Positions 4,087-13,949 of a stretch of 55,698 bases of DNA are shown in pieces. The stretch is taken from NCBI GenBank assembly GCA_026394765.1, contig JAPKXQ010000081.1, positions 1 through 55,698 on the forward strand, given 5' to 3'. Both the position numbers and the translations under genes were made by a program. The notes below the pieces were generated by a model that saw only the letters and a program-made list of their open reading frames with translations, searched no databases and had not been told where the DNA came from. The stretch comes from Methanomicrobiales archaeon. Lineage in GTDB: Archaea; Halobacteriota; Methanomicrobia; Methanomicrobiales; Methanospirillaceae. How positions within the stretch are numbered: the stretch's first letter is position 1; every line of letters starts with the position of its first letter.

Positions 4087-4161
4087 CGACTTCATCTGTT
4101 GCACGGAGTATCTCAATAAATAGATCTATTCCCGGGTGTGTGACTTGGGTTTTCCTGTGGC

Positions 4162-5916
4162 ATGGTGAGGATTCATCTTCCAGTTAAGAGTACAGTACCT
4201 TTTGATACAATGCCGCGGGCCCTCACCTTCTCCAGGAACGTATTTTTACCCCTCACCACTGTCTGCCGGAACCGCTGCCACTACTGCGGGTACAAGACCC
4301 CGGTTTTTGAGGGGTGTCTCATGGTTCCTGACCAGGTGAGAGAGATCCTCAGAGCGGGTGCAGCGACAGGGTGCACCGAGGCACTCTTCACCTTCGGAGA
4401 ACGACCAGGTCTTGTAGAAGGCTTTACTGACCACCTTGCGCGGATTGGTTATAGTGACCTCCTCACCTACACGTATGACCTCTGCCGGGAAGCAATAGAC
4501 CTTGGCCTTCTCCCCCACCTCAATGCCGGTGTACTGACGTACGACGAGATGGCGTGGCTCGCGGAAGTGAACGCAAGCATGGGCCTGATGCTTGAGACGA
4601 CTGCTCTCGTGAGGGCCCACGAGGGGTCACCCGGAAAGGACCCCGGGGTGCGGGTCGCGATGATCGAGGATGCCGGGCGGTTGCAGATCCCTTTTACGAC
4701 CGGCATCCTACTTGGGATCGGTGAGACCATGGAAGATCGGGTCGCATCCCTTCACACCATCCGGGACCTCCACGCCCGGTTCGGCCATATCCAGGAGGTG
4801 ATCATCCAGAACTTCTGCCCCAAACCCGGGACACTGATGGCAGACATTCCGGGAGTGAGCAATGAGGAGATCTGTCTTACAGTCAGATGCGCCCGTGAGA
4901 TCCTTCCCAGGGAGGTCGCAGTCCAGGTCCCCCCCAACCTCCTCGATGCTGCCAGGGTGATAGCCTGTGGTGCCGACGACTTAGGGGGCATCTCGCCTGT
5001 CACTGACGACTACATCAACCCTGAGCACCCATGGCCCTCTTTCGATCAGATCCGCGCTATCAGGGGGGACGCTACCCTCGTCGAGCGCCTCTGCATATAC
5101 CCCAGGTTCATTGCCATGCGGTGGTACCACCCCGCGCTGGAACCCCTTATTACGCGGCTGGACCAAGATCTCATGGTGAGGAACCGGATGCCGGTGAGTG
5201 GGCCAGCACGCTACTGCGGAAAGGCGAAGTCGCTCTTTCCCTCTGAACGCCATGGAGAACTCCTCGTTCTCTTCCGAGATGAGATCACGGCATTCGACGG
5301 GGGAAAGTCTGACACTTTAAAGGGTAAGGGGTCCTGGAACGCCAAAGTATCGGCGTTCTTCTTCCGACTACTGGAGGAGCGTGGGATCCGCACTCATTTC
5401 ATCGGTATGGAGGACGACGTGACGATGCGGGTCCGCGAACTGGCAATGATCCCCCTCGAGGTGATAGTCAGGAATATCGCAGCGGGATCGATGGTAAGGA
5501 ACTATCCGATCGCCGAGGGGACGCCCCTTGACCCTCCTGTAATTGTTATCGACTATAAGGACGATTCCCGCCATGACCCTATGATCAATGACGAGTTGAT
5601 CATCGCGCTTCGTATCTTGAATCCTGCTGAACTGGCGACTGTCAAATCTTATGCCCTCGCAGTGAATGAGGTACTGCGGGACTACCTCCTCTCAAGGGGA
5701 ATCGACCTCGTTGACTTTAAGCTTGAGTTCGGGAGAGCAGACGGGCAGGTCCTGGTGGGAGATGAGATAAGTATGGACTCTATGCGGTTGTGGGACCGCA
5801 CGACCCGGGAATCCCTTGACAAGGATGTGTACCGGTTCTCCAAGGGGGACGTAATGGAAGTATACGCTTCAGTTGCGGCGAGGATCCTTGGATGTGGGGG
5901 GGCGCATGAGATTTAA
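4162..5916 (+). CDS. cofG-purC: Fused FO synthase subunit 1 (CofG) and SAICAR synthetase (PurC)
   Basis: A single uninterrupted 584-codon frame. Residues 1 to about 340 are CofG, the radical-SAM subunit that helps form the deazaflavin Fo: cluster motif CRNRCHYCGY (Cys 35, 39, 42), FTFGERPG, LHTIRDLHARFGHIQEVIIQ and DDLGGISPVTDDYINPEHPW. Residues 343-584 are a complete PurC, which condenses CAIR with aspartate: YCGKAKSLF, ITAFDGGKSDTLKGKGSWN, IPLEVIVRNIAAGSM, LVDFKLEFG and DEISMDSMRLWD. The internal ATG at 5188 is preceded by GGTGAGG (5175-5181) at six bases, so a separate PurC may also be made. An in-frame ATG at 4210 is an alternative upstream start. It leads a purC-purS-purQ operon. The fusion is unusual; a lost stop codon or a real fused enzyme are both possible. 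Confidence 0.9.
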   Translation: MVRIHLPVKSTVPFDTMPRALTFSRNVFLPLTTVCRNRCHYCGYKTPVFEGCLMVPDQVREILRAGAATGCTEALFTFGERPGLVEGFTDHLARIGYSDLLTYTYDLCREAIDLGLLPHLNAGVLTYDEMAWLAEVNASMGLMLETTALVRAHEGSPGKDPGVRVAMIEDAGRLQIPFTTGILLGIGETMEDRVASLHTIRDLHARFGHIQEVIIQNFCPKPGTLMADIPGVSNEEICLTVRCAREILPREVAVQVPPNLLDAARVIACGADDLGGISPVTDDYINPEHPWPSFDQIRAIRGDATLVERLCIYPRFIAMRWYHPALEPLITRLDQDLMVRNRMPVSGPARYCGKAKSLFPSERHGELLVLFRDEITAFDGGKSDTLKGKGSWNAKVSAFFFRLLEERGIRTHFIGMEDDVTMRVRELAMIPLEVIVRNIAAGSMVRNYPIAEGTPLDPPVIVIDYKDDSRHDPMINDELIIALRILNPAELATVKSYALAVNEVLRDYLLSRGIDLVDFKLEFGRADGQVLVGDEISMDSMRLWDRTTRESLDKDVYRFSKGDVMEVYASVAARILGCGGAHEI

Positions 5917-8911: not shown

Positions 8912-9874
8912 TCAGGCGCCCCTGGAGATGAAGAACTCCCCTATTGCTTTGAGCAGCTCCCGCTCCTCACTCATTGGAAGAGTGTTGAGCCTCCGGTTCC
9001 CATTGGCAACAAGATCAGATGCAGTTGCCAGTACAGAATTTATAACCCCAGATTTTTTTAGGGTCGTAAGCAGGGCGTCCATCTCCTTTGGATCAGAACA
9101 GTTACGGTATGGTGCGAGGTCGATCCCCGCCTCTTTTGCCCGGATAGAGATCAGCGTCTGTTTTCCCTCTCTAATGTCTGATCCTCTGTCTTTTCCACTC
9201 TCTCCTGCATCAGCGATGATGTCTATCAAGTCGTCCTGGATCTGAAATGCCATTCCCGTATAGATCCCGTAGTTGGTGAGGGCATCCACAACCCTGGAGG
9301 AACCCCCGGCAAGGGTGCCCCCTATTGCGGCTGCAGCTGCATAGAGGACTCCTGTCTTTTTCCTCACCATCTCGAGGTACTCCCCATCTGTCACATCGTC
9401 CCGTGTCTCAAAGGACATATCGAGGAACTGCCCCTGACAGATCTCCACGCTTGCCTTGGCAAGAATCGAAATTGCACGGACCTTTGATTCAGGGCTTGCG
9501 TCAGCGAGGCAGAGAAACTCAAAAGCACTCGCAAAGAGTACATCTCCGGCGAGGATCGCAGTGGGATTTCCCCACTTGGTATGGACTGTGGGCACCCCCC
9601 GGCGGAGTGTGTCCCCGTCCATGATGTCGTCATGGATCAGGGTGAAGGTATGCGTCAGTTCCAGGGCAAGGGCGGCAGGGAGGACGTCTGCTCCTGCGCC
9701 TTTCTTTATTGCACCTGCTGCGAGCGTGAGAACTGCAGGACGCAGCCGCTTGCCACCTGCCACAAGGAGGTGGGCACTTGCCAGAGAGAGACCTCCTGTT
9801 GCAGACCCAAAGTGGCGGTGGATGAACTTATCGATCTGCTCTTCATTCTCCTGCAGGTACTGGTCAAGGTCCAT
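8912..9874 (-). CDS. idsA: Geranylgeranyl/farnesyl diphosphate synthase (trans-polyprenyl synthase)
   Basis: Condenses IPP with allylic diphosphates to make the C20 chains of archaeal membrane lipids. 320 residues with GGKRLRP (substrate Lys/Arg), the first aspartate-rich motif HDDIMD (Asp 82, 83, 86), GDTLRRGVPT, and the second motif QDDLID. The residue five before the first motif is Phe77, a pattern that in archaeal enzymes limits products to about C20. It sits between RNase J and gltX, downstream of the mevalonate-pathway genes, in the usual euryarchaeal order. Product length is inferred. Confidence 0.92.
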   Translation of the reverse strand: MDLDQYLQENEEQIDKFIHRHFGSATGGLSLASAHLLVAGGKRLRPAVLTLAAGAIKKGAGADVLPAALALELTHTFTLIHDDIMDGDTLRRGVPTVHTKWGNPTAILAGDVLFASAFEFLCLADASPESKVRAISILAKASVEICQGQFLDMSFETRDDVTDGEYLEMVRKKTGVLYAAAAAIGGTLAGGSSRVVDALTNYGIYTGMAFQIQDDLIDIIADAGESGKDRGSDIREGKQTLISIRAKEAGIDLAPYRNCSDPKEMDALLTTLKKSGVINSVLATASDLVANGNRRLNTLPMSEERELLKAIGEFFISRGA

Positions 9875-9891: not shown

Positions 9892-11229
9892 TCACGCGAT
9901 CTTCACCCGCTGGCCATTTGACATGATATGGATGTCGTTGTGAAGGGTATATCCAAGGTCCTCTGAGAACTCCGCATATGCGGAAGCCATCCTGATATGA
10001 CCATGGGCCGGGACAATGTGTTGTGGGGTTAAGAGGTTGATGAACTCATAATGGTCCTCCCGGTAGCCATGCCCTGATACGTGGAGGTCAGGAAAGATTC
10101 GAGCTCCCGCCATATTGAGGTGGGCCTCCACGTAGTAGCGCTGGCCATAGTTCATCGGATTCGGGATGACTTTGGCACTGAATATCACTTTGTCACCCTT
10201 ATCTATCTTGTACGGGGTGTCGCCCTGCACGAGTCGTGTCAGGATGGACCCGGGTTCCCCCTGGTGTCCGGTGACGATGGGTAAAAACTTCTCCTTGCCT
10301 GCTTTCATCATACGACGCATCGTCCTGTCTACGGTGCGTCGGTTTCCAAACATGCTGGTTGTCTCGGGAAATGCCACGAGCTTCATCTGTTCGGCAGCGC
10401 TGCTGTAGCGCTCCATTGAACGACCTAGTAAGACTGGTTTTCGACCTATCTCGTGGGCACACTCTGCGATAGTCTTCACTCTCGCAATATGGGAGGAGAA
10501 GGTGGAGACTAGGATGGCGTTCTTGTCGTCCTCATAACTCGTGATAGTGTCCCTGACAAGATCCCGGGCGATCCGCTCGCTTGGAGCGCGGCCCCGTTGT
10601 TCCACATAGGTGGCTTCTACAATGAGGGCAATGACCCCTTCTTTACCGATCTGGCGGAGGCGTCCGAAGTCTGGGGGGTCCCCGATAACTGGGGTACGGT
10701 CCAGTTTATAGTCGCAAGCATAGACTATCGCCCCGCTTGGAGTATGGAGCACCGCAGTCACCGTATCGATGATGCTGTGCTGCATCCTCACAAACTCAAG
10801 GGTGAGGTTCTGGGACAGGGTGTAACGTTGCCCTGACTTTAAGGCAAAAAGTTTGTTATTCACTCCGAACTTCTGTTCCCCTGCGATCTGTTGCCTGATC
10901 AGCTCGGTGGTATAGGGGGTACTGATGATTGGGGCATTGTACCGGTGTGCGAGTTTAGGGACCGCCCCTATGTGGTCCAGGTGGCCGTGGGTACAGACGA
11001 TCGCCTTCACTGTACCTTCCACGGTGTTCATCATCGTATCGTCGGGGATCGCCTTCATCTGGATGAGGTCCAGAGAGTGCATATTCTCGACCTCTGCGTC
11101 CTCATGGATCATCACCTGGTCCAGACGAAGCCCCATGTCAAATATGACAATCTCTTTCCCGCAGCGGACGGCGGTCATATTCCTCCCGACCTCGTTGTAG
11201 CCGCCAACTGCAATGATCTCAATATCCAT
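9892..11229 (-). CDS. rnj: Ribonuclease J (metallo-beta-lactamase/beta-CASP RNase)
   Basis: Predicted 5'-3' exo/endoribonuclease acting in RNA turnover in the cytosol. 445 residues from ATG 11229, beginning MDIEIIAVGGYNEVGRNMTA. The Zn-binding motif HGHLDHIGA lies at residues 81-86 and on. Further motifs are the ACDYKLD strand, the beta-CASP segment STFSSHIARVKTI, VTGHQGEPGSILTRL, and the C-terminal VSGHGYREDHYEFI and VPAHGHIRM. A longer frame to 11262 exists, but ATG 11229 matches the family and overlaps the 3' end of fni by 11 bases. It is part of the isoprenoid-RNase J-idsA gene string common in Euryarchaeota. Confidence 0.93.
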   Translation of the reverse strand: MDIEIIAVGGYNEVGRNMTAVRCGKEIVIFDMGLRLDQVMIHEDAEVENMHSLDLIQMKAIPDDTMMNTVEGTVKAIVCTHGHLDHIGAVPKLAHRYNAPIISTPYTTELIRQQIAGEQKFGVNNKLFALKSGQRYTLSQNLTLEFVRMQHSIIDTVTAVLHTPSGAIVYACDYKLDRTPVIGDPPDFGRLRQIGKEGVIALIVEATYVEQRGRAPSERIARDLVRDTITSYEDDKNAILVSTFSSHIARVKTIAECAHEIGRKPVLLGRSMERYSSAAEQMKLVAFPETTSMFGNRRTVDRTMRRMMKAGKEKFLPIVTGHQGEPGSILTRLVQGDTPYKIDKGDKVIFSAKVIPNPMNYGQRYYVEAHLNMAGARIFPDLHVSGHGYREDHYEFINLLTPQHIVPAHGHIRMASAYAEFSEDLGYTLHNDIHIMSNGQRVKIA

Positions 11230-12327
11230 TATCAACCTCTGCGAAACGCCCGACCATGTCACCGGTCTTTCCGGTGATTGTGGCCGGCACTGATCTCAAG
11301 TCTGAAATATTCTGTGCTCCGGTCAAGAACATCGCGACACGGAGCTGCCGCAGGTATCCATTCATCGTCCTGCAGACCTCTTCTTCCCCTTCCAGGGCCG
11401 GTTGGACCAGAGGGCGTGCCGCACCACAGACCCCTGCCCCAAGCGCGATAGCCTTTGCAATGTCAAGCCCGCTCCTGATCCCGCCAGTGGCGATGACCGG
11501 CCCTCCCAGTCTGGCCACTTCGATCAGGCTCACCACGGTGGGGATCCCCCAGCTGTCAAAGACACGCCCAAGTGCTGAGCGCTCCATATCACCCGATGAG
11601 CCCCACATGGAAATGAGCCCCACATGGAAGCCCTCCTCCCCTCCACTGCTGCCCAGGATGTACCCCCAAACCCGCCGATATCAACCGCGGCGGCTCCTGC
11701 ATCAAAGCAGGCAGCAGCGACGGTAGATGATAGGCCATTTCCTGTCTCTTTCACGATAACCGGGGTGGACGTGGCCTCACAGAGCTCGTGGAGGACGGCG
11801 AGGCACCCCCTTGCATCACATTCCCCTTCGGGTTGGATGGCCTCCTGGAGGAAGTTAAGATGGATAGCAATTGCATCGGCATCGATCATTGATACCGCGT
11901 GTTCGGCCCAGGCAATGCCATGGTCTCGTAACTGCACGATACCAAGGTTTGCGATGAGAAATGCTTGAGGTGCCGCATCCCGGACGACTGAAAATGTATC
12001 CGCGAGTGAGGGGTCTTCGAGTGCGGCCCGTTGTGAACCGACCCCCATCCCGACGCCCAGTTTCTCGGCAGCTGCTGCGAGCCTTCTGTTGACTTCTCTG
12101 GTCTCCGGGTGCCCCCCGGTCATTGCTGATATCAGGAAGGGGGCCTGGAGGGTATGACCAAGGAAAGTGACCTGGAGGTCGATTTCATCCATACTGCACT
12201 CAGGGAGTGCATTATGGAGGAGCAGTACATCATCGAACCCCGGAGACCCGCGTTCGACATCGTCTCCAGCACACATCATGAGGTGGTCGAGTTTGCGGGG
12301 CGAGGTATGGTTTTCTCTGTTCGTCAT
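11219..12327 (-). pseudogene. fni: Type 2 isopentenyl-diphosphate delta-isomerase, frameshifted by a 17-bp duplication
   Basis: FMN-dependent isomerase of IPP and DMAPP. ATG at 12327 follows GGGGGATGAG closely. The frame reads RKLDHLMMC, GFDDVLLLHNALPE, ISAMTGGHPETREVNRRLA, GMGVGSQRAAL, VKETGNGLSSTVAAACFDAG and DIGGFGGTSWAAVEGRRASM. It then leaves frame at about 11600-11629. The C-terminal part continues in the next frame: SSGDMERSALGRVFDSWGIP, VIATGGIRSGLDIAKAIALGA and ending FAEVDNGY. The switch coincides exactly with a tandem 17-bp repeat; removing one copy restores a 363-residue protein of normal length. Because the isomerase should be needed for lipid synthesis, a sequencing or assembly error is as likely as real inactivation. 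Both halves are otherwise well conserved. Neighbours are ipk and rnj. Confidence 0.9.
11596..11629. repeat. 17-bp perfect tandem duplication inside fni
   Basis: The unit ATGAGCCCCACATGGAA occurs twice back to back (11596-11612 and 11613-11629). 17 is not a multiple of three, so the second copy shifts the reading frame of fni. Deleting either copy rejoins the two frames at SMWG-SSGD with no other change. Confidence 0.95.
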
Positions 12328-12328
12328 C

Positions 12329-13087
12329 TCATCCCCCGTGGATATGGGTCCCCCCATGGGGAGAACCGTCGAGGAAATCACCGATGCGGGAGACGTGAAA
12401 GATCTCAGATGGGACCCCTTCACGTGCGAGGACTACAAGTTCGCTCAGTTTTCCTGCCATTCCACCCGTCACGTCGGTAAAGGTTGACCCTTTTATGGTG
12501 GTGGAAGGGAGATCCCCTGGGGTCAGATTCGGGATGACCTCTCCATCTCTCGAGAGTACCCCTGCCACGTCGGTGGCAAGCCCAACCCTCTGAATGCCAA
12601 GTGCGGGGGCGAGGGTCCGAACGAGGCGGTCTCCTGATAGGATACTGGCACCACGGGTGCGGTCCATCACCACATCGCCATGGAGTACAGGGACAATGCC
12701 GAGATCGATCATCACACCGAGCTGCTCGGTAGTTGCGGCAACTATGTCTCCATCCTCTATGAAATACGCGCCAAGTGGCGAGATCCCTATAGCATCCACG
12801 TCATGTTCACGGAGTCCTGTCACAACCGCGTCATTCAAGCGGCGAACTGCCCGGTGGGTCTCTCCGACACCCCTGCGATTATTGGCATTGATACCACCCG
12901 TTATCCCATACCGTGCGGCCTCGGGGTGACCACAGGACCCTGCCCCATGGACCAGGAGCAGTGGTACATCAGGGCGGCGTGCAACCTCTCCTGCTATCGC
13001 ATCGATGGTCCTGGTATCGATCGCCCCCGAAAGTCCCTTACTGGTAACGACACTCCCTCCCAGCTTCAGGATCACCCTAGGTGACAT
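12329..13087 (-). CDS. ipk: Isopentenyl phosphate kinase
   Basis: Phosphorylates isopentenyl phosphate to IPP in the archaeal mevalonate pathway. 252 residues of the amino-acid-kinase fold: MSPRVILKLGGSVVT at the N-terminus, the HGAGSCGH segment with the family's catalytic/substrate His (His54), ILSGDRLVRTLA, and DVTGGMAGKLSEL, the ATP-site lysine motif. It overlaps the mvk end by 11 bases and stops one base before fni begins, so mvk-ipk-fni form a tightly coupled isoprenoid operon. Confidence 0.95.
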   Translation of the reverse strand: MSPRVILKLGGSVVTSKGLSGAIDTRTIDAIAGEVARRPDVPLLLVHGAGSCGHPEAARYGITGGINANNRRGVGETHRAVRRLNDAVVTGLREHDVDAIGISPLGAYFIEDGDIVAATTEQLGVMIDLGIVPVLHGDVVMDRTRGASILSGDRLVRTLAPALGIQRVGLATDVAGVLSRDGEVIPNLTPGDLPSTTIKGSTFTDVTGGMAGKLSELVVLAREGVPSEIFHVSRIGDFLDGSPHGGTHIHGG

Positions 13088-13949
13088 CTCTCTCCTTTCT
13101 AACTCCTTCGGGGTCCATGGTGGTGATGATAGCCCGCCCTTCTGCAGTTTCTATAGCCTTTGCAACTCGGTTCTTGACAGTTCTGGGGCAGATCGCAATC
13201 ATGCAACCGCCCCCGCCAGCGCCTGTTGTCTTGGCCCCAAGCGCCCCGGCACTCCTCGCGGCGAGGACAAGGCGGGTGAGTGAGGGGTGGCCCACACCGA
13301 GCACATCAAGGAGCGCGTGGTTCATGTTCATGTACCTCCCAAGCTGGCTCTGGTCCTGAAGGTACCTGAGCGCACCCATAGTGACACCCTCAATAGCGTC
13401 CATCACCGGGTTGCAGATATCAGGCTGTCGTTTCCTGAGTTCTGCGACCATCTCGACCATCTTGCCGGTGCTATGAGAGACCATTGTGTTTCCTATCACC
13501 ATGTTGAAGTTCTGGGGCGGGAGGCGCCTCCTTTGGGTGCCCAGGATCAGGATAAGGCCTCCAAATGTGGCCACAGAGGTGTCAGTGGGACTTGCTTTCC
13601 CGCCCTGGACCCGTTTTTCGATAAGAAATGCGGAATTTGCGACCTCTTCTTGAGAAAATCCAAGCGAGAACTCATCATTTATCGCCGAGACTGTCGCAAC
13701 AGTCACTGCAGCCGAAGACCCCAGTCCAGAAGAGCTGGGGATCTGGGAGTTCACATAGACACTTCCCTTCACCCCCATCTCCTCGAAGCACCCGTCGATA
13801 TAGGGGGACCGTGCATGGTGCATCACTTTGCTCTTTCTGACCGTCACATAGACCCGTGGCCTGATTGCCATTGCAATCCCTGGCTTGCCATACACTACGG
13901 CATGCTCCCCAAAGAGGAACACCTTGCCAGGTGCACTCCAGGTCGCCAC
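13077..13949 (-). CDS. mvk: Mevalonate kinase
   Basis: GHMP-family kinase that phosphorylates mevalonate. 290 residues: SAPGKVFLFGEHAVVYGKPG (substrate-binding N-terminus), the ATP loop QIPSSSGLGSSAAVTVA, KASPTDTSVATFGG (catalytic Asp region) and the C-terminal GAKTTGAGGGGCMIAICP. The start codon is GTG at 13949, overlapping the TAG of the MEMO gene by one base; no ATG occurs nearby in frame and the protein begins at the family's usual position. Downstream it overlaps ipk. Confidence 0.95.
   Translation of the reverse strand: MATWSAPGKVFLFGEHAVVYGKPGIAMAIRPRVYVTVRKSKVMHHARSPYIDGCFEEMGVKGSVYVNSQIPSSSGLGSSAAVTVATVSAINDEFSLGFSQEEVANSAFLIEKRVQGGKASPTDTSVATFGGLILILGTQRRRLPPQNFNMVIGNTMVSHSTGKMVEMVAELRKRQPDICNPVMDAIEGVTMGALRYLQDQSQLGRYMNMNHALLDVLGVGHPSLTRLVLAARSAGALGAKTTGAGGGGCMIAICPRTVKNRVAKAIETAEGRAIITTMDPEGVRKERDVT

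Follow-up and report, generated by a model that had tools for sequence, protein, structure and literature searches.

The isomerase step of isoprenoid synthesis is presumably essential for archaeal lipids, and a genome in which the gene for this step is broken calls for an explanation. In the window studied here (the whole 55,698-nucleotide stretch of DNA that was analysed, which is contig C101 of the draft genome of a methanogenic archaeon), the frame of the type 2 IPP isomerase gene, fni (also known as IDI2), is interrupted by a short tandem duplication. We asked whether this break belongs to the organism or to its draft sequence.

A tandem duplication within fni

The 17-bp unit ATGAGCCCCACATGGAA occurs as two adjacent direct copies with 0 mismatches at 11596-11629 (Table 1). 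The identity covers exactly 17 bases and continues on neither side, and the sense-strand bases that flank the copies are C and C. Chance alone would yield a perfect 17-bp tandem duplication approximately 1e-4 (0.0001) times per 1.8 Mb genome, and perfect tandem duplications with a period of at least 12 numbered 0 in simulated genomes (n = 20).

The frame of fni changes within these 34 bases, leaving two ORFs in different frames on the minus strand. The first runs from ATG 12327 to a TGA that ends at 11530. The second starts at GTG 11623 and ends with a stop at 11219; its first 4 residues are foreign and are followed by native residues 234-363. Jointly, the two ORFs cover all 363 native residues with a 5-residue overlap (1-238 and 234-363). 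When the duplication is reduced to one copy, fni becomes a continuous frame of 363 amino acids. An earlier note on this DNA had described both the perfect doubling of the unit and a frame shift that a single copy would repair to a 363-residue enzyme; the exact match between the copies, the frames and the one-copy translation all agree with that description. The purine-rich stretch GAGGAGGG lies 7 nt upstream of GTG 11623. To judge from its letters and position, it is a putative ribosome-binding site for this start; the same stretch is also part of the codons for VEGRRA.

The neighbours of fni, which we take from family knowledge to be a prenyl diphosphate synthase (idsA), an RNase J-like gene, ipk and mevalonate kinase, have open frames and normal lengths. 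The intactness of ipk and idsA, also put forward in the earlier note, is thereby borne out by the ORFs. Elsewhere in the window, a single 590-codon frame (4144-5913, plus strand) encodes both a Radical SAM domain (36-204) and, further on, a SAICAR synthetase domain (357-580), and is either a fusion or two genes merged through error.

Table 1 Features of the fni locus, in coordinates of the window.
Feature	Position	Strand	Basis
fni N-terminal part, 265 aa (238 native residues, then 27 out of frame to TGA)	11530..12327	-	TIGR02151 positions 2-228, 288.9 bits; frames
fni C-terminal part, 134-aa ORF from GTG, native from residue 234 on	11219..11623	-	TIGR02151 positions 232-336, 105.6 bits; ORF list
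17-bp unit, first copy (plus-strand coordinates)	11596..11612	.	exact match to 11613-11629
17-bp unit, second copy	11613..11629	.	exact match
Purine-rich stretch, 7 nt upstream of GTG 11623	11631..11638	-	sequence
ipk, isopentenyl phosphate kinase (presumed), intact, upstream neighbour of fni	12329..13087	-	ORF
Mevalonate kinase (presumed), intact	13077..13949	-	ORF
idsA, short-chain prenyl diphosphate synthase (presumed), intact	8912..9874	-	ORF

Enzyme identity and the loop at the break

The gene is predicted to be that of an ordinary archaeal type 2 IPP isomerase. The curated cut-off of TIGR02151 (281.3 bits) is exceeded by the N-terminal ORF alone, in addition to which the C-terminal ORF has its own match (scores in Table 1), and the one-copy protein aligns with the solved structures 2zru, 1vcf and 1p0k across almost its full length. 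Of 103 columns conserved in at least 97% of relatives, 98 are kept, and none of the 5 changes lies at the break. The setting, beside ipk, mevalonate kinase and idsA, is that of an archaeal mevalonate cluster. Unlike the known enzymes, however, the present gene has its frame broken by a 17-bp tandem duplication in a variable loop.

The duplicated segment sits in the loop directly after GGTSWAAVExxR, the length of which differs among relatives. In an alignment of 54 sequences, the loop segment ranges from 24 to 32 residues, with none longer than 32. The one-copy length of 32 residues is the commonest (29 of the 54 sequences, the present one included), and the one-copy enzyme has a loop as long as that of its same-family relatives. 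The longest variant seen in pairwise alignment has 2 residues more (L032), and in the Bacillus subtilis structure 1p0k the loop is 11 residues shorter.

Age of the break

An old frame break would mean a C-terminal half that has drifted. The ratio of mean identity to relatives between the C-terminal and N-terminal parts is 0.868, as compared with 0.871 ± 0.034 for 53 relatives. Decay of fni was thus rejected, the C-terminal half being as constrained as in relatives, and without drift the event is either very recent or absent from the organism.

fni in related genomes

Full-length fni is present in all 60 of the nearest genomes, and a match at 1e-15 was found in 219 of 232 genomes of the order Methanomicrobiales. 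The best match is clearly reduced in 8 of these 219, all of them drafts less than 90% complete (the present one, 78.8%; G073, 87%; G089, 84%; G127, 74%; G130, 82%; G133, 62%; G192, 83%; and G214, 59%), and several of the 8 reduced matches are contig ends. The only other fni with a frame change inside a contig is that of G214, which also has further insertions of single residues, such as occur in consensus sequence of low quality. In the draft G192 (L282, contig C174), fni is without 39 internal residues, in frame, possibly as a result of collapsed assembly. Among genomes at least 90% complete, fni is found in 131 of 135, with no reduced match among those that have the gene, and the match is of full strength in every single-contig genome in the table.

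Thirteen drafts of the order, four of them at least 90% complete, have neither an fni match at 1e-15 nor a type 1 gene (G072, G080, G081, G084, G099, G123, G124, G125, G132, G163, G182, G213 and G215); the absence of fni from these drafts is probably due to gaps. A search for the copy-junction sequence in 107 further genomes from the family, with up to 3 mismatches allowed, gave 0 hits, none of those searched being of the same genus. Likewise, no repeat array was found at this site among the relatives compared, which include no second strain of the species.

Quality of the draft genome

The draft comprises 1.83 Mb in 107 contigs and is 78.8% complete with 0% contamination; from its fragmentation and completeness, it is apparently a MAG. 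Its closest named relatives are Methanomicrobiales. Nearly the whole genome was read in stretches, eleven short contigs consisting of N throughout. Perfect tandem duplications with a period of at least 13 are few (13, 17, 18, 21 and 36 bp). Those of 18, 21 and 36 bp have periods that are multiples of three, and in this draft only the 17-bp duplication was observed to disrupt the frame of a conserved gene. In a control of 0.83 Mb of relatives' loci, perfect tandem duplications with a period of at least 11 numbered 0 in Methanomicrobiales and were few in haloarchaeal sequence.

A codon-bias scan of the draft for frame changes returned 55 loose candidates. Those with the clearest signatures were picked by eye and submitted to family searches, a selection that keeps the outcome from being read as an error rate. 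Two frame-broken genes were confirmed, fni and, on contig C27, a histone-deacetylase-fold gene (L160, 2447-3369, minus strand). The latter apparently has more than one frame break, close to runs of G and C, and is either a pseudogene or the site of local sequence errors. The sole run of N within the otherwise readable sequence of the draft comprises 3 N on contig C84 (L217, 5928-5930), and a check of its flanks found no repeat or duplication. Systematic duplication by the assembler was rejected as a cause, given one frame-breaking tandem duplication in the draft and none at the inner N run; the artefact at fni, if it is one, is isolated. On contig C88 (L221, 9600-11465, minus strand), a 622-codon frame contains PKD domains and a diadenylate-cyclase (DacZ-like) domain, and an S-layer-like piece follows this ORF in another frame.

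Search for other isomerases in the genome

In Archaea, the type 2 isomerase replaces the type 1 enzyme in the modified mevalonate pathway (PMC4244643; PMC3533463). A type 1 enzyme is present in 1 of the 60 relatives. The same-family genome G031, which is 99% complete, encodes, besides its fni, a type 1 IPP isomerase that scores above the family cut-off (L277, contig C1, 73717-74184). Neither a type 1 isomerase nor a second full fni was found in the 1.83 Mb of the present draft (78.8% complete). A weak third match to TIGR02151, on contig C69, was considered as a second fni and rejected, since it is limited to positions 247-288 and comparable weak matches recur across the relatives. Nor was a second allele of fni found within the MAG, where the site occurs at one place only. 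The proposal in the earlier note that another isomerase might cover the function thus finds no candidate in a genome that is, it must be said, only 79% complete.

Origin of the second copy

The second 17-bp copy is probably an artefact of assembly or consensus, a technical origin that we infer from several lines of evidence. In one mechanism that would fit, two contig ends or reads with a 17-base overlap were joined end to end without being merged, leaving a perfect duplicate with no N. The living population would carry one copy and make the normal 363-residue enzyme. For a single, undecayed, near-universal gene that is broken in one draft, sequence error is the simplest account. It is supported by the draft state of the genome, the intact fni of relatives, the lack of a visible substitute isomerase and the lack of decay, and also by the frameshifted gene on C27 and the 3-N spot in C84. 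Spurious pseudogenes with frameshifts have been documented to arise from assembly, in a study that did not extend to MAGs (PMC11017572). The present case resembles those pseudogenes in its isolated frame break, its conserved and undecayed gene and its draft genome; it differs in coming from an apparent MAG and in that the diagnosis is indirect, being made from assembled sequence. Against an artefact, 17 bp is far below read length, so good coverage should resolve the duplication; moreover, there is no N at the duplication, and no systematic duplicating fault is visible in the draft. Of the three options raised in the earlier note, assembly error is the best supported. Reversible slippage is less likely, with nothing in the sequence that favours it, and the option of another isomerase finds no support in the draft, 79% complete as it is.

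The main rival to an artefact is a real and recent 17-bp duplication, produced by replication slippage, that knocks out fni in some members of the sampled population or in the strain behind this contig. We consider such a variant unlikely, although well worth weighing, as is its expected fate of being removed by selection or reverting through the loss of one copy. The identical copies and the intact downstream codons mean that the event, if real, was very recent, and the tandem repeats of 18, 21 and 36 bp elsewhere in the genome indicate that such repeats arise there. However, synthesis of all archaeal lipids should require the enzyme; carriers of the broken gene would then be expected at low frequency and not as the majority in an assembly, and no second allele is found in the MAG. 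Reversible slippage would also have only two copies to act on, and no relative comes within 3 mismatches of the copy junction. It is very unlikely that the true sequence is an in-frame duplication of 18 bp, which would add 6 residues to the loop, with one base dropped from the consensus. The flanking bases would allow this, as an extra C between the copies gives a perfect 18-bp repeat coding SMWGSS twice, and the length of the loop does vary; but two events are required, the site is not a homopolymer, and the alignments contain no loop beyond the one-copy length other than the pairwise maximum of +2.

A fixed duplication that has created a split type 2 isomerase is highly improbable. Here, the archaeon would make its only IPP isomerase as polypeptides 1-238 and 234-363 that reassemble, the second being made from GTG 11623 behind GAGGAGGG, and one 17-bp duplication would both make the split and supply the start of the second half. 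Such an arrangement would suit two ORFs that encode all native residues with a short overlap, a break in a loop that varies among relatives (24 to 32 residues in the compared segment) and is 11 residues shorter in 1p0k, a purine-rich stretch at 7 nt from the GTG, and halves of which neither has decayed. Yet the first ORF continues for 27 foreign residues beyond the break, no relative is split at the same place, the purine-rich stretch may equally be just the codons of VEGRR, and every one of these signs is equally expected from an error or a recent mutation. We give little credence to a true loss of fni in which an unrecognised isomerase or an imported precursor takes over: the missing part of the genome might contain a second isomerase, and G031 does have a type 1 enzyme besides fni, but neither a type 1 nor a second type 2 gene is present in the 1.83 Mb, and a gene released from selection should decay, which the present fni has not done. 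The probability of programmed ribosomal frameshifting across the break is negligible. Both frames are open across approximately 150 bases, but the overlap contains no correctly phased X XXY YYZ heptamer, and the break, far from being a conserved shift site, is a duplication that none of the relatives has.

Implications

The simplest reading of the break in fni is a sequence error in the draft, not new biology, and the main import of the break is a warning about quality. Automated annotation of this draft would label fni as a pseudogene or as two fragments, and could list a step of lipid synthesis as missing. Should both copies instead prove to be fixed, the locus would offer a rare instance in which a single mutational step has split a presumably essential enzyme.
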